From the NCBI GenBank assembly GCA_911728435.2, contig OU452205.1:6578260-6642259 (forward strand): 64,000 nucleotides of DNA. Direction: 5' to 3'. The first letter of the stretch is position 1; every line of letters begins with the position of its first letter. Source of the stretch: Apoderus coryli. Lineage: Eukaryota; Arthropoda; Insecta; Coleoptera; Attelabidae. This document shows, in pieces, positions 9,561-56,968 of the stretch. Below the pieces are notes generated by a model that was not told the origin of the DNA, did not search any database, and worked only from the letters and a program-made list of their open reading frames with translations. A program made the translations under genes and the position numbers.

Positions 9561-10144
9561 CAGTGGCGGCTTTAAGGGGGGGGGGGCGCAGGGGGCGCGC
9601 ACCCCCCCAACAATCGCTCCGTGGTTTTACAAAATATTCAACATTTAGAAAATGACAATGAATTCCTCCACATATAAATAGATTAATTGCATAAATATGT
9701 TTTAATCGAGCACCTGGTCTATAATATTCCCTTTAACTTTAATAATATAAATGATCGCGATTCCCTTAAAAAAAGGTCTTGTCGGATATAATTTTGGAAT
9801 TTGGGGAACTACTAGGAAATCCTTCTCTTATGCAATTGCTTGGGGAAATACAATTGTATAAACACAGAATGGTGGATACTAAAAATGCATTTGAAGCTTT
9901 GCAGAAATGTGATAAAAACTATTTCCCACTAGTGCACCAAATTTTTAAAATTTTATGTACGTTGACCATTTCTGTAGTAACGGCAGAAAGAAGCTTTTCT
10001 GGTTTAAGATTAATTAAAAGTTATTTAAGATCCACCATCGCAGAAGATCGTCTAAATGGGTTAGCCTTATTGTATGTTTATAGAAATATTGAAGTAAATA
10101 TTGAAAGTGTAATTAACCGTTTCGCCAATAAAAAAGAAGATTAG
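9561..10144 (+). mobile_element. hAT transposon remnant, 5' end plus transposase C-terminus
   Basis: The stretch opens with CAGTGGCGGCTTTAAGGGG, a typical hAT terminal sequence. It then carries an open frame at about 9779-10144 with the hAT C-terminal dimerisation domain: YFPLVHQIFKILCTLTIS followed by VTAERSFSGLRLIKSYLRST and EDRLNGLALLYVY. The catalytic core between the left end and this domain is missing, so it is an internal-deletion derivative. No matching right end (CGCCACTG) was seen downstream, so the 3' boundary is open. The frame has no convincing ATG. Confidence 0.75.
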
Positions 10145-11604: not shown

Positions 11605-12470
11605 CTACAGAAAAAAAAAATTAAAAAGAAAGATCTGAGATGCGAAGATGCGTCTCTCAGCTAACGGCCAAAATCCGAATTTTGTCAGTAACAGGCCGTG
11701 ATCACACCCACGAGGAGGAAAATATCCATCAATTTTAAATGACAAATATTTTAAAAACGTACGTTGGATACTCTCCAATCTCTGTATATGAACACGGTAG
11801 ATGGGCGACCAAATGATTGTAGCGAATTCCAAAATCGACAGAACAAAGGCGAAATAGAGACTTTTCAGGCAGTCTATATTGTTGAATTCTCTGATCTGTC
11901 TAAAAATAAATCCTAACATTCGCAAAGCATTATTTGCTCAATGTGGTAGTTAAAATATAAATCACCATCCAAGTATACACCAAGATCTTTGATTAACGCG
12001 CAGCGCTCGAAATTTGAATTATCGATGGTGTAGTTTCGGTGAAACGGAACTTGACGCAATGTCATCGACTTACATTTGATCAGATTTTGTGGAAGTCTAT
12101 TTAGATCACACCATTCTTAGAGCAGACACAGATCTGTTTGAAGCTGTGCGCAATCGTTCTCACAAACAACAGTACGATACAATTTTAAATCATCCGCAAA
12201 CAACAAATAATTGCTATTGAAACCAGAGCCAATATCGTTTACGAATATTGCAAAGAGAAGAGGAGCCAACGTACTGCCCTGCGGAGTTCCACTTGAGGCT
12301 GTGAATGAACTTGAACTGAATCCATTGTAGTCAACAAATTGTTGCCTTGCTCCCAGATAGGACTGAAAAAAATATATCAGATCCCTGCCGAAGCCAATGT
12401 CAATTAGAAAGTAAGCCAACATATTGTGATTTATTTTAGTAATTGTAAATGTATACCTATTGTCAGAAAC
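11605..12470 (-). pseudogene. LINE reverse-transcriptase fragment
   Basis: Two minus-strand frames belong to one broken RT. The first (12117-12422) has SGTPQGSTLAPLLFAIFVND and LLFADDLKLY, the RT motifs B and C with catalytic FADD. The second (11605-11925) has GFIFRQIREFNNIDCLKSLY and RTFLKYLSFKIDGYFPPRG from the C-terminal region. Stops and frameshifts lie between, so the copy cannot be active. It is related to the plus-strand fragment near 3.1-3.6 kb. Confidence 0.8.
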
Positions 12471-12484
12471 AAAATCCCTAATCG

Positions 12485-12743
12485 AACCATACGAAACAGA
12501 ACAGGAGTGCGAGACGCTGTTGAGACTACTCTACATCTGAAATGGAACTGGGCAGGCCATGTGGCCAGAATGAGAGATGGACGAAAACGATTATAGAATG
12601 GCGACCAAGATGCGAAGCTTTTAGAAATAGAGGCAGACCACCCACACGATGGACAGATAACATAAAACGGGTTGCAGGAAAATTTGAGAGAGGCTTTTGT
12701 TCAACAGTGGACAGTATAAGCTCGAAATGATGAGGATGATGAA
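12485..12743 (+). pseudogene. RTE-type LINE 3' end
   Basis: The plus strand reads RTGVRDAVETTLHLKWNWAG, HVARMRDGRKR, then EWRPRCEAFRNRGRPPTRW and TDNIKRVAG. This is the characteristic C-terminus of RTE-clade endonuclease/reverse transcriptases. The frame is broken after that point, and EAFVQQWT appears in another frame. The copy ends in a GATGAGGATGATGA tail, typical of RTE elements. The large foldback element begins at the very next base. Confidence 0.8.
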
Positions 12744-20827: not shown

Positions 20828-22600
20828 TTTTTTTTTTTTTTTTTTTTCCTTCAAGCTACATAACAAATGACAACTCAAAACAAAACAAATAATTTTTAAA
20901 TTATTGGAATTAGCAGGCCATGAACATATTCTCTTCCTTTTGAAAGTATCCATCTTTTTAATTTAGATTTATACATATTCAGCGAATTGATTCTTTTGAG
21001 CTCGTTAGGTAAGCAATTGTACAACTTAGGCCCCAAGTAAATAAAGCTTCGCTGGGTAAGGGATTTATCGATTTTGGGCAGTCTCAAATTTTCGCGACTC
21101 CTTGTTTGATAGTGATGCGAAACCATGGATGAAGCATCCCTCATCCTATATTGTCTGACAAGTATTGTATAGGAAAATAACTGTCTCACATCCAGTAGTT
21201 TGGCTTCACTGTATAATACGTCCGTAGGGTATGTAAATTCTTTTTGAAATATTCTCCTAATTATCCATTTTTGTAATTTTTTAAGATGGTACAAATGATT
21301 ATCAGTTGTACCTCCCCATGCTATTATTCCGTAAGTCAAGTGAGGCTCTACAAGTGCATGATATAATATTTTTAGGTGATTTAGATTTAAAAGAGTAGAC
21401 AAATACTTGAACTTATATAGAAGAACGCGCAGTTTTTTAACTGTTTGATCAGCATGCATATTCCACCTGAAATGACTGTCCATGTACAGACCCAAATATT
21501 TTATATTGTTGCATCCGTTTATGGTAACATTTAGGCAATTATCACTGACTTGAAGTGTGTTAAAATCAGGCAAATTACTACTGTATGATGTAAATGGTAC
21601 AAAACTTGTCTTGCCAACATTCACTGTCAGAAGTTTTTTATTAAAGTAGTGTAAGAATTGTTTGAAATCATGTTCTATTAATTTTTTTAGTTCATTCCAA
21701 GTGTCACCCTTATAAATTATTGCGGTATCATCAGCAAAACTGACCGTGTCACCACATGATTTGAGAGAATACAAGTCGTTTATGTAGATGTTAAACAAGA
21801 TGGGTCCCAAGACTGTACCCTGAGGGACACCACACTCAATCATCCGAGTTTCACTCTCTGAGTTTTCAATACAGACAGTTTGTTTCCTATTTTCCAGATA
21901 ACTCTTCATAAGAGCATATGAGGAACCCCTGAATCCTACAGACTCTAGCACCTTTAGAAGTTGGACATGACTAACGGTATCAAATGCCTTTGCTAGATCA
22001 ACGAACACGCATATTACCGGTTTTCTCATTTCAATCTGTTTATATATTTCTCCAGTTACGTAAGCAATGGCATCTTGTGTTGACATTTTTTCCCGGAATC
22101 CAAACTGTTTATCCGATATTAATTTATACTTTTTTAAGAAGCTCGTTATTCGCTTGTGTAGTATTTTCTCAAACACCTTTGCCAGTGTGGATATCAGGGA
22201 TATCGGTCTGTAGTTAGTCACATCCAACCTACTTCCGCTTCCTTTAAAAATCGGTTTAATTTTACTAATCTTAAAATCATCTGGAAAAATGCCTTGTTGT
22301 AGTGACCTATTTATTATAAATGTTAGAGGTGGTGCTATCGTATCCGCGTTCAATTTAATGGTTTCGGATTTTAAATTATCATAACCAGGAGTTTTGCCAT
22401 CTTTTAAATTTTTAATAACGTTTACGACTTCATCCTCGTTCGCATCATACAAATACATGGAATGCGGATTTCGCGAGTTTTTATTGTATTCTAAATCATG
22501 ATCGCATTGCTTAATTTTAGATGCTAAATTTGTCCCAACTGATATAGCAGTGATAATGTCATACCCATCCTGCATGTAGTTAGAATGAACTGAATAGCTC
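20828..22600 (-). mobile_element. 5'-truncated LINE with long intact RT frame
   Basis: A non-LTR retrotransposon on the minus strand ends in a 21-base poly(A) (T-run at 20828-20848 on the plus strand). A 3' UTR of about 47 bp precedes it. The 5' end is lost near 22600. It encodes the 559-residue RT described separately. No target-site duplication was identified. Confidence 0.8.
20896..22575 (-). CDS. Non-LTR retrotransposon reverse transcriptase
   Basis: The longest minus-strand frame (559 codons) is open to its stop without internal breaks. It copies element RNA into DNA at a nicked chromosomal site. RT motifs are in order: PGYDNL near residue 63, NYRPISL at 121, KQFGFRE at 156, VDLAKAFDTVSH (motif A) at 192, GVPQGTVLGPILFN (motif B) at 249 and SFADDTAI (motif C, catalytic FADD) at 279. 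The thumb/connection region YLGLYMDSHFRW and the terminal RSFIYLGPKLYNCLP follow. The endonuclease and ORF1 are absent, so the copy is 5'-truncated but relatively young. It most resembles jockey/CR1-type elements, and the exact clade was not tested. Confidence 0.85.
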   Translation of the reverse strand: MQDGYDIITAISVGTNLASKIKQCDHDLEYNKNSRNPHSMYLYDANEDEVVNVIKNLKDGKTPGYDNLKSETIKLNADTIAPPLTFIINRSLQQGIFPDDFKISKIKPIFKGSGSRLDVTNYRPISLISTLAKVFEKILHKRITSFLKKYKLISDKQFGFREKMSTQDAIAYVTGEIYKQIEMRKPVICVFVDLAKAFDTVSHVQLLKVLESVGFRGSSYALMKSYLENRKQTVCIENSESETRMIECGVPQGTVLGPILFNIYINDLYSLKSCGDTVSFADDTAIIYKGDTWNELKKLIEHDFKQFLHYFNKKLLTVNVGKTSFVPFTSYSSNLPDFNTLQVSDNCLNVTINGCNNIKYLGLYMDSHFRWNMHADQTVKKLRVLLYKFKYLSTLLNLNHLKILYHALVEPHLTYGIIAWGGTTDNHLYHLKKLQKWIIRRIFQKEFTYPTDVLYSEAKLLDVRQLFSYTILVRQYRMRDASSMVSHHYQTRSRENLRLPKIDKSLTQRSFIYLGPKLYNCLPNELKRINSLNMYKSKLKRWILSKGREYVHGLLIPII

Positions 22601-22974: not shown

Positions 22975-24600
22975 AACTTTAAGAGATTTGGCTCAAGGCC
23001 ATTCTTCCACTCTACCTATATTTCCAACATAACTAATTAATTCGCAATAAAAAGAATAAAGTAGCAAAAGAAAACAAAAACAGTTCAATTACATTACATT
23101 AAAAAACAAAAAACAAAACAGAGCAGGTGTCTCAATTAAACAACATTTCCTTTAAATTATCATGAAATTGCCTAGGTCACAGTACCTGTTCAATAAATAA
23201 GGGGCAGCATATGAAAAGCAGCCATCAAATCTACTACCAGAATGCTGCGGTATGGTAAAATTGTCAAAACGGATATTCACATTATGCACTCTTGATCGCC
23301 GCCTTAATAATTCAAAAAGATACTTGGGAGTCTTCGAAGTGTAAATCCAGTACAGCATCATCATATACAAATATTCAGTCCTAAGATTGATCCTAGGTTC
23401 ATGCAGTTGAATCAAAAAAGGTGATATATGAGCCCGGTAAGGAACGTTACAAACAAATCTAACACAAGCGTTTTGAATTCTTTGAATTTGGTTTTGATTA
23501 AAGTTAGACAGCAAACGATAGGACACTTGCGAACAATAATCTATATGCGGATATATCAGCGACTTAACGAGCTTCAACTTAGTTCCTTCGTCCAGAATAT
23601 GTTTCAAATGATGGAATGACCTAAGTCTGAAAAACCATTTTTTATATATAGAAGAACAGTGTGACCCGCATTTGAGATTGTCGTCAATAATATCTCCAAG
23701 GTTACGAGCACTTGAAACCCATTGAACAGCAACGCCATCAACGAAAACCCTATGATTCTGCTTAATATTGTTACAGTTCCGTTCATTGCCAAAACACAAA
23801 GCTAGCATCTTATCCGGGTTAATTCGGAGTCCATTGTCCTTACACCAAATAGAAAAGATCTTTAAATCACTATTAACAGTCAGCAAAGCATTCTCCACTT
23901 CACGAAAATGAAAAGGCAAGTAGAACTGCACATCATCTGCATACATATGAAGCTTCAGTTTTTGAATTTGAAATCCGACATCAAATGTAAAAATTGAAAA
24001 GAGAAGAGGTCCCAGGATGCTACCCTGAGGAACCCCGTCCGATGTCCCCCTGAAGCCAGACATCCCCAAATTCATCTTAACTAGCTGTCTTCTATTAAAT
24101 AGATAGCTTTCGAACCACTTCACGGATGCAACATCGAAGCCCAGATATCTCAATTTCGCCAGAAGCATATCAAAGTTAACCAAGTCAAACGCCTTACTTT
24201 GGTCTAATAAAATTAGGAAACAGATTGAGACTTGTCTACAGCACGTGACAAGTCATCCACTACCTTCAACAGGGCTGTATTGGTACTATGTTTTTTCTGA
24301 AGCCCGACTACTCAGAGGGCTGCATACTATGCTGCTGCAAATAATTTTGAATTTGATCACACACTAGTCGCTCAAGCATTTTGGAAAGGGCTGGTAAAAT
24401 ATTACTTGGTCGCAGCTCGTTGTAAGAAGAGGGTGACTCTACCTTTGGAATCGGAATGACATCGGCACTCTTCCATATGTCTGGAAAGATACCGAAGCTC
24501 AACGAGTCATTAAAAAGTTCTGTTACAGCATTAACACAGTAGGGCATGACTAGATTCAACATTTTTATGTTTATATTATCTATGATGGTGCTTGAAAATT
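22975..24600 (-). pseudogene. LINE reverse transcriptase, frameshifted
   Basis: The upstream part (24308-24562) has SFGIFPDIWKSADVIPIPK and RPSNILPALSKMLERLV. The downstream part (23152-24183) has GVPQGSILGPLLFSIFTFDV at residues 50-69 and YADDVQF at 81-87, plus LVKSLIYPHIDYCSQVSYR and FTIPQHSGSRFDGCFSYAAP. Between them QSGFRKKHSTNTALL is readable in another frame, so a frameshift at about 24200-24300 disables the copy. The 3' UTR continues to about 22975. It belongs to the same family as 32371-33405, including the shared 3' UTR words AAGAGATTTGGCT and CATTCTTCCACTCTACC. Confidence 0.8.
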
Positions 24601-32370: not shown

Positions 32371-33405
32371 TAATAATAATAATAATAAAAGGATTTATTA
32401 TGCAAAAAAGAAAAATACAAATCAAATCAAAAACAATACATTGTACATTTTACATAAAGGGTAAGAGATTTGGCTTAAATGCATTCTTCCACTCTACCCG
32501 AAAATTTACGTACATTATAGGTACAATCTTCCACAACAACAACAAAACTTAATTCTTAAATAATATATTTTTGATCGTACGTTGAAAATAGCTTTGTGAC
32601 AAATGAAGGAAACTGCGTACTTTATTTAACAAAGAGGGAGCCATATATGAAAAGCATCCTTCAAATCTTGATGTTGAATGTTGAGGTATTGTGAATGTGT
32701 TATAACGAATATTACTACTGTGCACATGTGATCTTCTATTCAATAGTCTAAACAAATATTCAGGCGTCCGCGATTTATGAATCTTATAGAGCAACATAAC
32801 ATACAGGTACTCAAGTCTATTACAAGTTCGGGGTTCGTTTAAATCAATTAGAAAGGGAGTGATGTGTGCTCTGTGCGGAACCAGAGTTGTGAACCTGATA
32901 CATGCATTATGCACCATTTGAATTTTGTTTTTCTTATACTCAGTCAGGAAGCTATAATACACTTGTGAACAATAATTTATGTGAGGATATACCAAAGCCT
33001 TTACTAAAGTCAACTTGGTTGACTCATCTAAAATATGTTTGAGGGGATAAATAGACTTAAGTCTATAAAACGAGTTCTTATATACGCAGTTACAATGATC
33101 ACCAAAATTTAATCTGGAATCCATTATTACACCAAGATTTTTGGCTTTGTGCACCCATTCAATCGGAGCATTATTTATTAAAACGTTGCAATTTAGGTGC
33201 ACAAAACTTTCCTGACGCTCACTTCCCAGACATAAGGCTACAGTTTTATTTGGATTTATTCGAAGGCCATAATTAAAACACCAATCTGAAAACGCGCTCA
33301 AATCGGTATTCAGATTAGCGATAGCTGTGCGTGCCTTATCGATGCAAAAAGAATACTGCCTTGTGGTACACCACTTGCAGTTTCCCTCATGTCTGACAGC
33401 TCATC
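32371..33405 (-). pseudogene. LINE RT fragment with (TTA)n-type tail
   Basis: The minus-strand frame 32549-33301 (250 codons) covers the region after motif C: SAFSDWCFNYGLRINPNKTV, then ALVYPHINYCSQVYYSF and NTFTIPQHSTSRFEGCFSY. Upstream in another frame GVPQGSIL is joined directly to sequence after the YADD box, so the catalytic motif C is deleted. The 3' end carries an (ATT)n tail at 32371-32389. It is the same family as 22975-24600 and sits in the last intron of the secreted-protein gene. Confidence 0.75.
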
Positions 33406-36708: not shown

Positions 36709-37578
36709 CTAAAAATATACATACATTGTTGAATTAGATTATTAAACTTAATACATTAAAATCAGAAGTTTACTTTATAACAAGTATGAACGTATGAAGT
36801 CTCAAATATTGATGTATTGCTATTACCAAAGATTAATCTACATTAATCTTTGCTATTACTTTCCTGTGCAGGGAAAGTATTGTGAACGCGTTAAAAAAAT
36901 TTTTAGATAAAGACGGATATAAGCATTTTTAAGTTCCCTGAGACGATTAAGAGCATTTCCAGATGGAAGTCTGTCTGTCTGTGTGTATTCTACCACGATA
37001 GCGCCCAAACGCTTTAACCCATTGAGCTAAATCTTGGTTTTGAGTTTGGGGCAGTCCTAGGATGAAGCCATTAGATTTGAGTTGAAATCGCTTAAGCGCT
37101 CTGATAGAGCTGGACACAACCACTAAATTTTCATATATCAGTAGGGGTCGAGTGATACATCATTTCAAAGCTTTTTTATCTGCTTTACAGCGATAGGTCA
37201 CTTTTGATATATGCCCCCATAATTCTCGAGAAAATAGCGTTTAAAATGTCACCAGTTACTTAGTTGGAACGTATATAATATACAGGGTCCCCCGAAATTG
37301 GCTTTAAATAATTTAAGGGGACATTCTACAAGCAAAAATAAGATGGTTTTTTCATATCAACATATATCGAAAAATGCTTCGTTTTTCAGATACAGGATGT
37401 TATTTGTAAATTCCTGACGAAGGGTTTTAGTAATTAAGAGGATTTCATGTCCGTAAATATAATAAATGAAAATAATTTCGTGGCAAAGCGGACTAAAATG
37501 TTGGCTTTACCTACACAAGGAATTTTGTTTAATTTAGCAGGGCCCCAGTCTAATTCGATAGAAACCAGACCGAGGCAT

Positions 37579-37648
37579 GGGTCGACAGGTACTGACGAAT
37601 TCGTTTCGCTCTTGTTATGAGCTCGTCAGAGCACCATAGTCGCTGCCC
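37579..37648 (-). ncRNA. Type I hammerhead ribozyme (inverted unit)
   Basis: Reverse-complement copy of the motif described at 38135-38204, with every core and helix base preserved. It would self-cleave only in transcripts of the minus strand, which is also the sense strand of the surrounding host gene. It could therefore act in the intron of that pre-mRNA. Confidence 0.8.
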
Positions 37649-38134
37649 ATCACAAATATCGGCCTGCATTTAAGCACAATAGGATACACAACAGTAGACA
37701 CATGTAAACATATATCATCTACATGTACATAGTAATGCATATCCCATACCATGCACACATTTTAGTCCGCTTTGCCACGAAATTATTTTCATTTATTATA
37801 TTTACGGACATGAAATCCTCTTAATTTTTCATTATTTGGCATTAAACATCGACGGCAGAACGCTTGGAGACCACCGTCCGAGCATTGCTGAAACCCAAAT
37901 ATTTGGGAGATGCTGGCAGAAGGATAAAATGGTCTCCTGCTAGCGTTTTGTGTTCATACTATTTTTATTTATATTTATTTCTATTTATACGACTGGTTTT
38001 ACCTATACATTGAGTTTGTTCGGCCTCTGCATGGTATGGGATATGCATTACTATGTACATGTAGATGATATATGTTTACATGTGTCTACTGTTGTGTATC
38101 CTATTGTGCTTAAATGCAGGCCGATATTTGTGAT

Positions 38135-38204
38135 GGGCAGCGACTATGGTGCTCTGACGAGCTCATAACAAGAGCGAAACGAATTCGTCAGTACCTGTCG
38201 ACCC
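38135..38204 (+). ncRNA. Type I hammerhead ribozyme (unit 1)
   Basis: The core CTGACGA is at 38154-38160. Stem II is GCTC/GAGC (38161-38164 with 38172-38175), closed by the 7-base loop ATAACAA. GAAA is at 38176-38179. Stem III is ACG/CGT with the AATT loop, and the cleavage triplet GTC ends at 38189. Stem I pairs GGTGCT (38148-38153) with AGTACC (38190-38195). After an internal loop (TAT against T) it continues as CGAC/GTCG and then GGG/CCC. All invariant hammerhead positions are present: CUGANGA, GAAA and the A15.1-U16.1 pair. The stem I internal loop is placed as needed for tertiary contact with loop II. Predicted cleavage follows 38189. Confidence 0.88.
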
Positions 38205-38659
38205 ATGCCTCGGTCTGGTTTCTATCGAATTAGACTGGGGCCCTGCTAAATTAAACAAAATTCCTTGTGTAGGTAAAGCCAACATTTTAGTCCGCTTTGC
38301 CACGAAATTATTTTCATTTATTATATTTACGGACATGAAATCCTCTTAATTTTTCATTATTTGGCATTAAACATCGACGGCAGAACGCTTGGAGACCACC
38401 GTCCGAGCATTGCTGAAACCCAAATATTTGGGAGATGCTGGCAGAAGGATAAAATGGTCTCCTGCTAGCGTTTTGTGTTCATACTATTTTTATTTATATT
38501 TATTTCTATTTATACGACTGGTTTTACCTATACATTGAGTTTGTTCGGCCTCTGCATGGTATGGGATATGCATTACTATGTACATGTAGATGATATATGT
38601 TTACATGTGTCTACTGTTGTGTATCCTATTGTGCTTAAATGCAGGCCGATATTTGTGAT

Positions 38660-38729
38660 GGGCAGCGACTATGGTGCTCTGACGAGCTCATAACAAGAGC
38701 GAAACGAATTCGTCAGTACCTGTCGACCC
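38660..38729 (+). ncRNA. Type I hammerhead ribozyme (unit 2)
   Basis: Exact repeat of the unit 1 motif 525 bp downstream, with predicted cleavage after 38714. Cleavage at both sites of a plus-strand transcript would release a linear 525-nt monomer that could be circularised. Confidence 0.88.
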
Positions 38730-38840
38730 ATGCCTCGGTCTGGTTTCTATCGAATTAGACTGGGGCCCTGCTAAATTAAACAAAATTCCTTGTGTAGGTA
38801 AAGCCAACATTTTAGTCCGCTTTGCCACGAAATTATTTTC

Positions 38841-39420
38841 GGTTTTAGTAATATTTCCGGAACGCGTCTCGATATCAAAATAACATTTGGCACACTTATG
38901 TATCTTTGTGGGAAAGGGAGACCCTTAACCCTTAATACGCATTTCCATTATATTTCTTGTATGATCGTAGCCGTATTAATATTGAAGAGGTTGCATAGAA
39001 ATTTTCAATGTCATTTATCTTAAAAACGGCTTGTTCTAACGTTATGAAACAAGTGAACATTTTTTATGTACAAAAGTCTCAAATTTATTATTCTTTTTAG
39101 GAAAAGTAAAAAAATGGCACAAAAAAATTGGAATAAAATTTGTTCTGACCCCACACAGCCTAACCCACCCCTGACCTTATCCTAACCATTTTTTATTTTT
39201 CAATTTAAGATTTTACAAATAAAAATACATTACAATATTTTCGTAATAATAACAGCATATTTGAGGTTGTTCTTGGTCCAGGGATGAGTTATTTCGTCTG
39301 ACTCGTCATTGCTGATTTTGTGGGCAAATTTTTTTATTTTTCTAGATCTTGCCATGAAATCTCAAGCACGACATACCACAATTTGCTTTTAAATTTTGTA
39401 ATTCCTTCACTATCGTACCT
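38841..39420. other. Intronic DNA, nothing recognised
   Basis: AT-rich intron sequence, with no gene or repeat supported. Confidence 0.3.
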
Positions 39421-42668: not shown

Positions 42669-43243
42669 AATAATAAATGAAAAATAACTTAGTGGCAAAG
42701 CGGACTAAAATGCTGGTTTTACATACACAAGGAATTTTGTTTAATTTAGCAAGGCCCCAGTCTAATTCACTAGGAACTAGACCGAGGCATGGGTCGACAG
42801 ATACTGACGAATTCGTTTCGCTCTTGTTATGAGCTCGTCAGAGTACCATAGTCGTTGCCCATCTACAAATATCAGCCTGCATTTAAGCACAATAGGATAC
42901 ACAACAGTAGACACATGTAAACACGTATCATTTACATGTACATAGTAATGCATATCCTATACCATGCAGAGGCCGAAAAATTCAATGTATAGGTAAAACC
43001 AGTCGTATAAATATAGATAAAAATAAAAATAGTATGAACACAAAACGCTAGCAGGAGACCATTTTATCCTTCTGCCAGCATCTCCCAAAATGTTTGGGTT
43101 TCAGCAATGCTCGGACGGTGGTCTCCAAGCGTTCTGCCGTCGATGTTTAATGCCAAATATTGAAATATTAAAAGGATTTCATGTCCGTAAATGTAATAAA
43201 TGAAAAATAACTTAGTTTTAGTCCGCTTTGCCACTAAGTTATG
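42669..43243 (-). mobile_element. Retrozyme-like element, second locus
   Basis: A single unit on the minus strand, collinear with the 525-bp unit of 37.4-38.8 kb but with scattered substitutions and small indels. At its 5' side (plus coordinate about 43213-43237) a 24-base snap-back copy of the unit start lies in inverted orientation. At its 3' side the first bases of a second unit follow, again showing a more-than-unit-length template. ACTAAG flanks both sides but is also unit sequence, so a target duplication is not proven. Confidence 0.75.
42791..42860 (-). ncRNA. Type I hammerhead ribozyme (second locus)
   Basis: All core bases are kept (CTGACGA, GCTC/GAGC stem II, GAAA, GTC). Stem I reads GGTACT against AGTATC. 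Relative to the 38-kb copies one G-U pair became A-U and one G-C pair became G-U, so all six pairs are still possible. The outer CGAC/GTCG and GGG/CCC pairs are unchanged. Confidence 0.82.
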
Positions 43244-48787: not shown

Positions 48788-49625
48788 CTAAAAATTATAT
48801 TTCAAAAACCCTTCCTCTACCCAACGGATCCGTCTTCGGCGGTTGATTTTCCTGATTTCTTGGAAGACAACTGGCAAACAAATGGTTGTGTACCACTCAG
48901 AATTGAATGTTCTGCGTTGTTCTAATGGTACGGTTGCGCCATGTCCAGTTTTTCCGAAAAAACAGGCGACCATTTGCTTGGAAGTGCTTCGTGCGCGAAC
49001 AAATTTTGTTGCATTTGGCTCATCTTGAAACACCCATACAATCGACTGCTGTTTACTTTCGGGTTCATACGCGTAAATCCACGATTCATCACCTGTCATG
49101 ATGTCATAGACGTGTTTCGAAGCACCGCGATGGTATTTTCTGAGCATTTCTTTCGACCAATCGACACGAGTCGTTTTTTGAGCGATTGACAAATTGTGTG
49201 GGATCCAACGAGAACAAATTTTTTTGACAGTCAAATGTTTATGCAATATTGAATGTATGTTGGTCCCACTAATGCCTAAGGTTGCCTCAATCTCTAGTTA
49301 GGTCACATGACGATCCTGCAATATCAGGTCGCGCACAGCATCAATGGTTTTCGGAACAACAACTGATTTTGGACGACCTTCACGAAATTTGTCTTGGAGT
49401 GAACTACAACCACGATTGAATTCATCATACCATCGATAAACACTGGTCCTTCATCGCCAAAAATTGAATTAAGTTCATCCATGCACTGTTGCTGAGTTAA
49501 TCCACGTCGAAAGTTGTAAAAAATAATCGCAAGAAAATATTCACGATTTTTGGGCCGAGATGAATCTTTTAAGTTACTGTAAACAACACAAATAGCAAAT
49601 ACCGCTCGTATGTCAAAACGTTCTG
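48788..49625 (-). pseudogene. mariner transposase relic
   Basis: The minus strand spans most of a mariner transposase in pieces. The N-terminus is SRPKNREYFLAIIFYNFRRG with LTQQQCMDELNSIFGDEGP. After a frameshift come REGRPKSVVVPKTIDAVRDL, a TAA stop after LQDRHVT, then HKHLTVKKICSRWIPHNLS. MTGDESWIYAYEPESKQQ, with the first catalytic Asp, follows, then NSEWYTTICLPVVFQEIRK. After RRRRI the frame jumps to EEGFLKYNF. The HHDNASSHT box with the second catalytic Asp is therefore deleted, and the copy is dead. Confidence 0.85.
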
Positions 49626-51180: not shown

Positions 51181-51329
51181 TTTTCAATAACAACGAACGA
51201 ATCGATAGTCAGATTGCTGTCAAATTTATACACGTATCGTTTGAAGGTTTGTACTAAATCGGACTTATTGAATGACCAATATAGGTCCAAAATGTGGAAT
51301 AAGGAATGGAGTTTTCTTATATTTTCGGA

Positions 51330-51720
51330 CACAAATTCCTTTTCTTATTGTCATTTCATTTGGGCATTGAAGATCGACTCCAATATGTGGGTGATGCTCG
51401 CAGAATCTAGACATGGTCTCCTGCTGACCTTTTGTGTTTTAATTATGTTTGCATTATTTTATATCCATCTATCTTTACTGCTGTCTTTACCTATATATTG
51501 GATTTGTCAACCTGCATGCGGTGAGATGTGTACTGTTGTAGAAATTCTATGGTTTTAGGCAAGTCGATGTTGTAGTTGGGATAACCATGGTAGGTACTCT
51601 GACGAGTTTATAATATGAGCGAAACAATATCGTCAAAAGACTGGGGTTCTGTTATATTAAACCAAATCCCGTTTATTGGTAAAGTAAATAATTTTGTCCG
51701 CTATATGCCATAGAACTATT
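51330..51720 (+). mobile_element. Retrozyme-like element, decayed third locus
   Basis: Collinear with the 525-bp unit, sharing GTCTCCTGCT, TTTTGTGTT, CTCTGACGAG, GAGCGAAAC and a final TTTGTCCGCT, but heavily diverged with deletions. It starts near a TCATTT word at 51345 and ends with TTTTGTCCGCTATATGCCA. The hammerhead core is present with weakened helices. Confidence 0.6.
51599..51634 (+). ncRNA. Decayed hammerhead ribozyme
   Basis: CTGACGA, GAAAC and GTC are kept. Stem II is GTTT against GAGC (with wobble pairs), stem III retains two pairs, and stem I has lost its pairing next to the cleavage site. Probably inactive. Confidence 0.5.
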
Positions 51721-51724
51721 TCTC

Positions 51725-52620
51725 CTTTAAAACCTAATTTTTGAAATATACTATAACATCATGAGACTATTAGGTAATATCAAGGTCGTAGGTTCCGGCC
51801 CCAGAGAACAGGACAAAATGTTAATAACTATTTGTAAAGAACAACTGTAAACCATAAACAGGTATAATCTTAGTCATTTTAATAGCAAAACAGTTACTTG
51901 ATTTCAATAAAGTAAAGTGTATTTCTTATACTCTGAAATATAGGTAGGTATTGGATAAAATTAATAAAGTGCATTGGTGAAGATCAGATGTATAGTTTTA
52001 CTTTAATTTGCAATACGATTCAATTCGAATCTTCGACAGTAATGTCTCTCATATGGTTGCAGGACAATTTCTACAATTCAAACAAGCCTGTCCCCAAGGC
52101 CTTGTCTGAGTGAAATACAAATTTACTAATATTTCATCATAATATACATGATGAACATTATTACTAGATAATAACATAGGCTATATAATATGAATAATAT
52201 TAAACCAAATATAGACAAATCATATCTGTCAAGATTAGCTTACATAATATAAATATTTGTATGGTCTCAATACCTTTGCTTTGTTTTTATAGCAAAAAAC
52301 TAAAGTGTTCTTTCGACCGATCGGAAAATTACACTGTCTGAATAATTTTTGCGCAAGAACGTAAAATTTTTTCAACCTAAAACGGAAAATGGGCATCACA
52401 GATCAGGAAAACATTTTTCCGATATCATTTGTCAATTTTCCGATCCATGAAATGAAAAACAAATGAAACAAATTCATATCATATAGCCGATTTTTTTTCT
52501 AAAGTAGATAAGAAACAAAAAATTCAAATTTGAAAAAGTAGTCCATTGTCGTGGAGTTATAATTTCAGTAATGAAGAATCTCAACGAAATAAGTTTAGCA
52601 CAATCGTCAATTAATAGTAT
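51725..52620. other. Intergenic DNA, nothing recognised
   Basis: AT-rich, with no supported gene or repeat. Confidence 0.3.
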
Positions 52621-54305: not shown

Positions 54306-54892
54306 CCCTTAAAAAAGTTTTTCTAAAAATGCGGATTTTTCCAATTAAATAAGTTCAGCAACATAGTAGAGTATCGCGTAGCGTTAAACATACGTCTCAA
54401 GGTCAACCACCTGCCGCGATACGCAGTACGAAAGTGACTCTCGAACAAGTGGTATCGTTAAACACGCACGCGCTTAAAAATAGGCTTTAGTTTGTGAGTA
54501 CGTAAAAAGTGTAGATTTAATTCATTTTTAATAAAACAAAATGGCTGAAGTAGGGAAAGGTACGTAGTATTCGAATATGCTAGTAATAATAATTAATTAT
54601 TTATTACTAATTAATAATTTAAGTAGAAAATACAAGAAAAAGTTATACCTTTCAAGAATATATTATTTATTTTGGTAGAGATACAAAAAAAATTCCACGG
54701 AATTCCGCAACAAATCTTGTTGGATATTGATTATTGTTGTCTACTTATTCCAGAAAAGTGACATTTGTCTGCCACTAGCTGCCACTCTGGCTTTGGAATT
54801 TTTTTTAAAACCTAAATGCATGAAATATCGGAGCATTTTCGCTTCATTATTTAATTTGCATTTTATTTTTTTTTCAGACTCAGATAACGTTC

Positions 54893-56968
54893 GTGGTCTC
54901 TCGAGAAAAGACCTCTTCTTTTTTAATAAAGGGCCAGTTGAATCAAAATATCAAGGACATATGTGACATTGTGCAAAACGAAATTAATAGAAAATATAAT
55001 TGCGATTTTGAATTAACTGAAAGTGATAAAACTAATGTACGTAATACCGTACAAAAAATAAAAATGAAGTGGCAGGAAGTGCACCGAACCGAGGATAAGT
55101 TTTTAGGCAAATTTCAAAACTGGCTAAACGAAATGACTATTGTGATCGATGACGACAAGCAGAAACCAATTTTGAGTACTCCTAGAAGTGGTCGTCCTTC
55201 ATGCTCTTTTTCCGAATCTAGCGAGAGAACAAAGAGGAGAAAAACTGAGGAAATTCGTAAAGTACGAAGTAGCAATGAACTAGCGTATGCAACACAAATG
55301 AAGTTAAGAGCTGAAGGAAAATTGGACTCTGCATATGTTTTACATGACATTACGTTTGGTACACCTACTAAACCGTCCAAGTACAGAAAATCAATTAATT
55401 CGGTTCAAGAGAGAACACTTTCTGAGGACGAAGCTTTGTCATTGCTAATTGAAACAAGACTTTCCAAAAATCAATATCAATTGCTTCGACAAACCAGCCG
55501 TGGAAAGAATTGTAAACTTTTTCCTCATTATTTGAGCATCCTCAAAGCTAAAAAAAGATGTTACCCCGAAGACTCAGTTTTAACTATAACAGAAAGTAAA
55601 GCATCTGTTCGAATACAGGCATTACTGGATCATACGGTCGATCGAATTTTATTTGTGCAAAGCGATGTTATTCAAAGCCTTGCTTCAAAGAACGTTAATT
55701 TGATATTAATTTGCAAATGGGGATGTGACGGGACTTCCGGACAAAGTAATTACAAACAAAAATTTTCTGAAGGATATTGTACTACTGATGCAAACATATT
55801 TTTTACGTCGCTTGTTCCTTTAGAACTCTCGTCTGTAGATGACATAACGGGTGATAAAATTATTGTTTGGAAAAATCCTCGCCCTTCATCAACACGATTT
55901 TGCCGTCCAATAAGAGTTCAATTTTTGCATGAAACTGCAGAAGTAGTTCGACAAGAAGTTGATCAAATTTGCGAAGAAGAAAAACACCTGATTCCATTTC
56001 ACTCTGTATTCGGTGGTACAGAAACAGTCAACTACAAGCTCCAATTTACAATGGTTGACGGGAAAGTGTGCAATTCTGTGGCCAATACAACATCTAGTAT
56101 TCGATGTTATCTTTGTGAAGCGACTTCAAAAAATTTTAATAATTTAGAAAATATATTGAAACTACCGATTAAGAAAGAAAATTTGCAATTCGGGATTTCA
56201 TCACTTCATGCATGGATAAGATTTTTTGAGTGTTGCTTACACTTATCTTACAGACTTGAAATTAAAAGATGGCAAAGTCGTAGTGCGGAAGATAAGGAGA
56301 ATATTGAAAGAAGAAAAAAACAGATACAGAAGAGTTTTCGTGAACAATTAGGGATAATTGTAGACCAACCAAAACAAGGGTATGGGAGCAGTAATGATGG
56401 AAATACGGCAAGACGTTTTTTCGAAAATTCTACTATATCAGCTAGTATAACAGGCGTGGACAAAAATTTAATAGATAGGTTTTATATTATATTACAAACT
56501 ATTTCTTGTGGTTTTAAAGTTGACACAAAAAATTTTGAGGCATACGCTTTAGATACCGCCAAATTTTATGTACAACTTTATCCGTGGTACTATATGCCGA
56601 CTAGTGTTCATAAAATCCTCATCCACGGTCATGAGATTATTGATTATGCCATACTTGCCATTGGTCAAATGTCAGAGGAAGCTCAAGAATCGTGCAACAA
56701 ATATATTAAAAGATATCGAGAGAATTTCGCTCGCAAATGCAGTAGGCAAAAAAATTTGGAGGATGTTTTTAGAAGGCTTTTGGTAGCTTCAGATCCTCTG
56801 ATTTCAAGTTTAAGAAAAATGCCTGCCAAAAAGTTAAAATCATTGTCAGCTGAAGCTATTGAATTATTAGTTCGACCTTCAATTCCAGAAGTTACTACTG
56901 ATAGTTGTAACGCGAGTTCAAGTGACGAAGATGCAAGCGATTCTGATAATTCTTCGGAAAGTGAATAA
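54893..56968 (+). CDS. Transib/RAG1-like transposase
   Basis: An open frame of 691 codons. The enzyme nicks and hairpins DNA at the element ends in the nucleus, the same chemistry as RAG1. By eye the RAG1-core landmarks follow in order: WGCDGTSGQSNYKQKF with D279 (RAG1 D600 position), CYLC at 405-408 (RAG1 CTLC zinc pair), SSLHAWIRFFE at 436-446 (RAG1 ALHCDIG region), NDGNTARRFFE (RAG1 NGNFARKL), and QESCNKYIKRYR at 598-609 (RAG1 NESGNKLFRRFR), with E599 at the E962 position. The tail is acidic and Ser-rich. The frame begins at a GTG codon, so the true start is upstream. ATGGCTGAAGTAGGG at 54541 with a GTACGT donor and a TTTTTTTTCAG acceptor at about 54876 would supply a short first exon, but that junction enters a different frame. 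At the RAG1 D708 position there is W441. Confidence 0.85.
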   Translation: MVSREKTSSFLIKGQLNQNIKDICDIVQNEINRKYNCDFELTESDKTNVRNTVQKIKMKWQEVHRTEDKFLGKFQNWLNEMTIVIDDDKQKPILSTPRSGRPSCSFSESSERTKRRKTEEIRKVRSSNELAYATQMKLRAEGKLDSAYVLHDITFGTPTKPSKYRKSINSVQERTLSEDEALSLLIETRLSKNQYQLLRQTSRGKNCKLFPHYLSILKAKKRCYPEDSVLTITESKASVRIQALLDHTVDRILFVQSDVIQSLASKNVNLILICKWGCDGTSGQSNYKQKFSEGYCTTDANIFFTSLVPLELSSVDDITGDKIIVWKNPRPSSTRFCRPIRVQFLHETAEVVRQEVDQICEEEKHLIPFHSVFGGTETVNYKLQFTMVDGKVCNSVANTTSSIRCYLCEATSKNFNNLENILKLPIKKENLQFGISSLHAWIRFFECCLHLSYRLEIKRWQSRSAEDKENIERRKKQIQKSFREQLGIIVDQPKQGYGSSNDGNTARRFFENSTISASITGVDKNLIDRFYIILQTISCGFKVDTKNFEAYALDTAKFYVQLYPWYYMPTSVHKILIHGHEIIDYAILAIGQMSEEAQESCNKYIKRYRENFARKCSRQKNLEDVFRRLLVASDPLISSLRKMPAKKLKSLSAEAIELLVRPSIPEVTTDSCNASSSDEDASDSDNSSESE

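Follow-up and report, generated by a model that had tools for sequence, protein, structure and literature searches.

A multi-copy family of hammerhead retrozyme-like elements in Apoderus coryli, with head-to-head arms and two sites of insertion ends

Retrozymes are established in animals, insects being named among the carriers, and both the use of RNA circles as templates and mobilisation by Penelope-like elements have been put forward as proposals (Cervera & de la Pena 2020, PMC7229834). Their sizes are species-specific, with circles from 150 to more than 1000 nt (PMC7229834), and we therefore do not treat unit size as defining the retrozyme class. Rotifer Penelope elements are described with direct and head-to-head inverted terminal copies, duplications of 8–10 bp and a 31-bp tail (PMC3846280). 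In vitro, a Penelope-like enzyme primes on both strands of the target with AT-rich cleavage, and it initiates internally at two adjacent sites whose spacing equals the tail; the ribozyme is dispensable in these reactions and the start site is not homologous to the target (PMC11167929). Further papers used in the comparison are PMC6155905, PMC7761336 and PMC8490949.

The window analysed here is a 64,000-nt stretch of the A. coryli genome, and all coordinates refer to it unless a contig is named. It contains an insert at 37435–38840 that is flanked by a perfect 12-bp target-site duplication, GGTTTTAGTAAT, which is found only at these two flanks within the window; the chance that a random pair of 12-mers from the window is identical is about 1e-6. 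The initial annotation had placed the edges of the element at exactly these positions, and had described two direct units of 525 bp with a partial inverted unit. Both descriptions hold, as the direct copies at 525-bp spacing are identical at 559 of 559 bases (37757–38315 versus 38282–38840) and the inverted partial copy is complementary to the direct unit at 324 of 324. The parts of the insert are:

37423..37434, no strand: left target-site duplication GGTTTTAGTAAT (repeat comparison)
37435..37755, minus strand: inverted arm, 321 nt, with its outer end at unit position 159 (site B)
37757..38840, plus strand: direct arm, 1084 nt or 2.06 units, with its outer end at unit position 126 (site A)
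38190..38714, plus strand: one 525-nt unit, from predicted cleavage site to predicted cleavage site, position 1 being 38190
38841..38852, no strand: right target-site duplication GGTTTTAGTAAT (repeat comparison)

A single extra base separates the inverted arm (to 37755) from the direct arm (from 37757). The inverted arm overlaps the duplication by 3 nt (AAT) and its outer end lies at 162 if these are counted, so that, with the direct arm ending at 126, the inverted arm carries a tail of 33–36 nt. There is no ORF of at least 110 aa inside the element, in agreement with the initial statement that no protein is encoded; it thus has no ORF combining reverse transcriptase (RT) and GIY-YIG and is no Penelope-like element in its own right. 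The insert has no poly-A between the end of the unit and the duplication, the window contains no tRNA gene, and no Pol III boxes were found on the sense strand of the unit, an A-box-like word being present on the antisense strand only.

Three predicted hammerheads lie within the insert, together with a short palindrome in the first of them:

37574..37645, minus strand: type I hammerhead 3, in the inverted arm, predicted cleavage 37594/37593 (strict descriptor, Rfam E-value mode)
38138..38209, plus strand: type I hammerhead 1, predicted cleavage after 38189 (strict descriptor, Rfam E-value mode)
38663..38734, plus strand: type I hammerhead 2, predicted cleavage after 38714 (strict descriptor, Rfam E-value mode)
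38179..38188, plus strand: ACGAATTCGT, stem III and its AATT loop, a 10-nt palindrome (read from sequence)

Each of the three has the full core, the stems are as first described, and the cleavage positions proposed after 38189 and 38714 agree with the hammerheads that the descriptor defines. Searched with the strict type I descriptor, the window has four intact hammerheads, of which three belong to the insert and one to a second copy (see below); 300 Markov-1 random sequences of window length have none. The claim of complete type I hammerheads stands to this extent, but not at the level of the Rfam models. At the gathering threshold there is no match for the insert hammerheads, and in E-value mode each is matched best by Hammerhead_HH9, with 20.6 bits where the cut-off is 52 (E 0.052); the hammerhead of the second copy scores 20.1 bits (E 0.029). 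The initial annotation had named a covariance-model score below threshold as evidence against its reading and such is the score obtained, although we think that it is outweighed by the other evidence. The isolated 87-nt hammerhead region has only a small folding advantage over shuffled versions (z -1.75, equalled by 9 of 200). The energy model favours a helix that pairs the hammerhead core with the cleavage strand and so buries it, at -26.4 versus -20.8 kcal/mol for the native fold, and the open core makes up about 1e-4 of the ensemble in a model that ignores tertiary contacts. This preference makes the activity of a single hammerhead uncertain, and it may be weak in cleavage. Because stem III and its loop are palindromic, a tandem transcript could pair two of its hammerheads into a dimer, an arrangement reported for newts and axolotl (PMC7229834).

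The initial annotation had also proposed that the genome be searched for further 525-bp multimers, and this reveals a multi-copy tandem family. Across the 428-Mb assembly (129 contigs) there are 1,238 exact copies of the 36-nt hammerhead core (633 forward and 605 reverse), and the reversed control gives none on either strand. The family sample comprises 62 sequences, these being the three window copies and 59 loci, 39 of which come from regions among the matches listed (40 of 1450 candidates scored) and 20 of which are the first 20 by position on contig 1 in the exact-core list. They form 63 clusters, with two loci giving two clusters each and window copy 3 falling below the script settings; one cluster, L072, consists of two adjacent elements merged. 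Fifty-one clusters are head-to-head, none is tail-to-tail, and 12 are one-armed. A duplication of 11–14 bp accompanies 41 of the 63 clusters and 39 of the 51 that are head-to-head, and random flank pairs with the same slack gave an 11-mer match in 4 of 3000. The duplications are 81% A+T. Unit number varies between insertions, and arms longer than one unit are seen at the A side in 23 and at the B side in 21 of the 32 elements that could be sorted, the longest arm seen being about 3566 nt, or 6.8 units (L090). The family is young and abundant. Forty-four viral contigs have the hammerhead pattern and their best match to the unit is a chance-level 20 nt (E 0.085); the phages searched have no match to the unit.

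Two regions of contig 1 are of separate interest. One example is a run of five minus-strand followed by five plus-strand hammerheads at 526-bp spacing (contig 1 positions 23319178–23324404, from the exact-core list), which is apparently another single-template insertion. A second example is a set of three similar-looking older copies (L100, L101 and L102) about 5.95 kb apart, and such even intervals suggest that a segment of host DNA was duplicated in tandem; none of the three is among the position-ordered clusters with a duplication.

The outer ends of the insertions are confined to two sites in the unit, A and B. After correction for the duplication, the A ends lie at unit positions 125–130 (n=38) and the B ends at 156–167 (n=39), with a mean spacing of about 32 nt when the odd end of L088 is excluded. 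One A and one B end are present in 45 of the 51 head-to-head clusters, with A on the left in 24 and B on the left in 21; five of the other six have B and an end elsewhere, and one, window copy 2, has A at both ends. Among the 39 head-to-head insertions with a duplication, 38 have the A and B pair. The sole exception is L088 (contig 1), which has a 13-bp duplication with ends at B and at position 474, and is the only one of the six clusters lacking the pair to have a duplication. If A or B were chosen freely at each end, the probability of 38 mixed pairs in 38 would be about 4e-12. The position-ordered part of the sample (L092–L111, 22 clusters) has seven clusters with a duplication, and all seven have A and B ends. 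Across the family the insertion ends are unrelated to the ribozyme cleavage site. The predicted structures at the two sites in the window insert are:

38290..38334, plus strand: predicted site A stem-loop GUCCG...CGGAC, unit positions 101–145
38336..38357, plus strand: predicted site B hairpin, unit positions ~147–168

The A ends sit in the predicted 106–140 loop closed by GUCCG/CGGAC, where their unpaired probability is intermediate (0.4–0.7 in copy 1), and the site B hairpin is present in the whole-unit fold, an isolated 81-nt fold showing the site A stem-loop only. With this hairpin missing from the isolated fold and the A ends partly paired, the predictions hint only weakly that A and B are in or beside hairpin loops. 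Microhomology between target and RNA at the junctions is 2.39 nt at A (n=38) and 1.93 nt at the other ends (n=40), compared with 0.35 at control positions, values that the use of the longest possible duplication may inflate a little. A longer homology between target and RNA was considered for the window insert and rejected as weak (168 of 4000 random windows and 23 of 2000 shuffles are as good), and none extends beyond the ends of copies 2 and 3.

Differences between the units of an insertion carry information about the template. Variants relative to the window unit were recounted in 60 sequences (the 59 loci and the window insert, leaving out window copies 2 and 3), at positions covered at least 3 times and with indels binned by 12 nt; an element was counted as young if all of its pieces are at least 98% identical. 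Thirty-five young elements have positions with this coverage, and the 20 that carry variants there have seven variants in all units, one in all but one (11 of 12 units in L090), 43 in one unit, and none between. All eight of the shared variants (in L053, L056, L064, L075 and L090) occur in both arms, and they are not always private to one element, 408 A>G being present in both L053 and L056. Seven elements are old, and five of these have such variants, with 12 in all units, four in all but one, 40 in one unit, and seven between, these last seven all belonging to the merged L072. In L061 and L111, which have one unit per arm, all of the printed non-single variants are common to both arms. A smaller tabulation (15 nt trimmed at alignment ends, 30 of 60 elements with no more than 14 variants, no more than four partial variants each) has a 10-nt deletion in L103 that appears at three neighbouring positions, and an insertion in L075 as 6/7. 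A cruder count in 56 elements, giving 141 variants shared by all units and 637 in some, was set aside for its alignment noise at ends and indels. Among 15 elements with at least two full units, units of the same element differ by a mean of 0.54 (83 of 128 pairs identical), and the between-element mean, using first units only, is 1.57 (21 of 105 pairs identical). We note that L089 (contig 1) has a 31-nt insertion at unit position 299 in one of its seven full units and is otherwise uniform. Mutations strike single units, and a variant present in all units of both arms thus needs a bottleneck of one unit, which a monomeric circle would supply. This pattern of sharing suggests that both arms were copied from a single monomeric RNA, for which a circle is the simplest form.

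Two older copies of the unit, both absent from the initial annotation, are present in the window:

42670..43242, minus strand: copy 2, 91–94% identical in pieces, one unit and a 27-nt inverted end, hammerhead intact
42786..42857, minus strand: copy 2 hammerhead, in which the changes in stem I keep pairing
51302..51731, plus strand: copy 3, degenerate, 72–81% identical in aligned pieces, the 3′ side of stem I deleted and the ribozyme broken

As both are within about 14 kb of the young insert, this region has been struck at least three times. Copy 2 has no clear duplication, only 6-bp words. Copy 3 gives a weak Rfam match in E-value mode (Hammerhead_3, 17.1 bits, E 0.89), and a short inverted end proposed for it is no better than in shuffles (212 of 500).

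Copies 1 and 2 are separated by 26 substitutions, which we compared with random placement of the same substitutions on the predicted fold. On the circular sense fold of copy 1 they break two pairs where 9.8 are expected, and none of 5000 random sets breaks as few; in energy, all of 120 random sets fold less well. The reverse direction, from copy 2 to copy 1, is less extreme for pairs (four broken versus 7.7 expected; 180 of 5000) and again has none of 120 sets folding as well. On the antisense strand seven pairs are broken versus 7.8 expected (2053 of 5000 as few), and here too the energy is favourable, with just 8 of 120 random sets as low. The whole-unit RNA (38190..38714) is predicted to fold with z -6.27 in the sense direction and z -2.85 in the antisense. 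We read these predicted folds as reflecting selection acting on the ribozyme strand as RNA.

The initial annotation read the insert as a non-coding retrozyme-like element that moves through an RNA circle with RT supplied in trans, and this is the explanation that the duplications and the shared variants support best. We consider it probable that the family is a non-autonomous animal (non-LTR) retrozyme with a 525-nt unit, copied from an RNA circle by an RT acting in trans. Tandem units would be transcribed, their type I hammerheads would cut the transcript into 525-nt monomers, and a host ligase would presumably close these into circles. The trans-acting RT would most likely be Penelope-like and would probably work as a pair, cutting both strands of an AT-rich target 11–14 bp apart; among the 22 ORFs of at least 110 aa in the window there is no match to a GIY-YIG domain. 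Copying would start from the two cut ends on one RNA circle, at site A from one strand and at site B from the other, and each start would travel round the RNA for part of a turn at the least and almost seven turns at the most. Joining of the two cDNAs head-to-head and filling of the gaps would leave an inverted and a direct arm inside the duplication. The sequences themselves show the anatomy, the two end sites, the duplications, the variants common to both arms and the preserved fold of the ribozyme strand; the circle, the enzyme and ribozyme activity belong to the proposed scheme. Within this scheme we favour, with less assurance, an arrangement in which two RT units hold one circle, each loads one cut end at its own site (A or B) and both run round, with the circle and not a linear transcript as the template in vivo; among the 39 duplicated head-to-head insertions the same site is never used twice. 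Weighed against the preferred explanation are the Rfam scores below the cut-off, the predicted burial of the hammerhead core, the lack of a GIY-YIG match among the window's ORFs, the less extreme pair count from copy 2 to copy 1, the favourable antisense energy and the intermediate variants of the merged L072. The 12 one-armed clusters and the six of 51 head-to-head clusters that lack the A and B pair also count against it, as does the fact that a uniform linear concatemer could give long arms too.

This last point belongs to an alternative in which the template for the retrozyme is a linear transcript of several units that has not been cut, as has been proposed for the anole Penelope-like element, where initiation is internal on linear RNA and ribozyme cleavage is not needed in vitro (PMC11167929). 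The young tandem loci have near-identical units and their linear transcripts would therefore resemble a circle, but variants carried by every unit in both arms need the one-unit bottleneck that a multi-unit RNA does not give, and many arms of both kinds exceed one unit; we regard a linear template as unlikely. We judge it similarly unlikely that a LINE mobilises the retrozyme by ordinary twin priming with the inversion as a by-product. Twin priming gives one fixed 3′ end with a variable second priming site, and most copies lack it. In this family the outer ends are both confined, head-to-head clusters are the large majority with no tail-to-tail ones, and the window insert lacks poly-A before its duplication. 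ORFs with RT matches that read as LINE-like do occur in the window, duplications of 12–14 bp would suit LINEs, and the 15-bp duplication of Nematostella repeats has been compared with those of LINEs (PMC4918200). A hammerhead carried by chance in satellite DNA or in a TIR DNA transposon would fit the tandem units and inverted ends superficially, and the cave-cricket pDo500 hammerhead repeat is called satellite DNA (PMC2808323), but this is very improbable given the insertions' own duplications, the variable unit number, the asymmetry of the A and B ends and the preservation of pairs on the ribozyme strand. For these respective reasons we rejected the LINE reading and the satellite and DNA-transposon readings.

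Other parts of the window also have protein matches. An uninterrupted ORF of 714 aa (54824–56968, plus strand) matches the solved structure of the DNA-mediated transposase 6pqn, which we take to be a Transib, over residues 199–683 (E 2e-122) and has a weak match to RAG1; it may be a V(D)J recombinase relative that is still intact. The ORFs with RVT_1 matches that we read as LINE-like are all on the minus strand (20896–22599, 23152–24252, 12117–12530 and 32549–33400); one is open over 567 aa, and the match of 32549–33400 is weak (E 0.017, below the cut-off). Three further stretches (13–414, minus; 9770–10144, plus; 48788–49297, minus) have matches to DUF4817, hAT dimerisation and Transposase_1 (mariner-like); the first two domains score above the cut-off and Transposase_1 does not reach it.

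The initial finding is right, and richer than was reported. Since the family is young and abundant, each insertion records its own event, and the records bear on the two points left as proposals for animal retrozymes in PMC7229834: variant sharing across both arms speaks for a one-unit circle as the template, and the two end sites speak for machinery of the Penelope type. The copies define two landing sites that are open to direct test with a purified enzyme, and the family is a natural case of what we infer to be rolling reverse transcription on a circle.

How does the family compare with known systems? The retrozyme class is known, whereas the family, its size and the anatomy of its insertions seem, tentatively, to be new. 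Neither the two-site head-to-head anatomy nor a shared-variant test was found reported for retrozymes in the literature covered, which was open-licence with few subscription papers and no preprints. The pDo500 repeat of Dolichopoda cave crickets has a unit of about 500 bp. It is alike in being an insect hammerhead repeat with conserved, compensated stems, and unlike in being described as a tandem satellite DNA, the likeness being one of description only (PMC2837043, PMC2808323). Plant LTR retrozymes share the hammerhead, the non-autonomous habit and the circular RNA (predicted here), but have a type III hammerhead, LTRs, PBS/PPT and 4-bp duplications (PMC4918200). The hammerhead repeats of newt and axolotl have a similarly weak stem III (3 bp here) with a palindromic tetraloop suited to dimeric cleavage, in units of 330–350 bp (PMC7229834). 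Also close are the metazoan non-LTR retrozymes, which have the type I hammerhead, short AT-rich tandem non-coding units, duplications of more than 4 bp and a highly self-paired RNA, and differ in unit size (about 170–400 nt, in repeats of 150–450 bp, versus 525 nt here; PMC7229834). The word 'inverted' does not occur in the main text of that paper, which does not appear to mention head-to-head two-arm insertions with two end sites.

The insertion anatomy has a parallel in the Penelope-like elements, which have direct and head-to-head inverted copies, AT-rich targets and type I hammerheads (PMC3846280, PMC11167929). The retrozyme differs in having no RT/GIY-YIG gene, its whole unit being apparently non-coding, and in having A and B ends in 38 of 39 duplicated head-to-head insertions and several rounds of copying. 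The duplications are 8–10 bp in the Penelope-like examples versus 11–14 bp here (PMC3846280, PMC11167929), and short microhomology with the target is seen in the retrozyme whereas the anole Penelope-like enzyme starts at a non-homologous site (PMC11167929). The Penelope-like tail is optional and its 30–40 bp correspond to the distance between RT start sites (PMC3846280, PMC11167929); the equivalent distance in the window insert is 33–36 bp, the retrozyme start sites A and B being deduced from insertion ends. By this analogy, the two-site, head-to-head anatomy of the family matches the 'tail' signature of Penelope-like elements.
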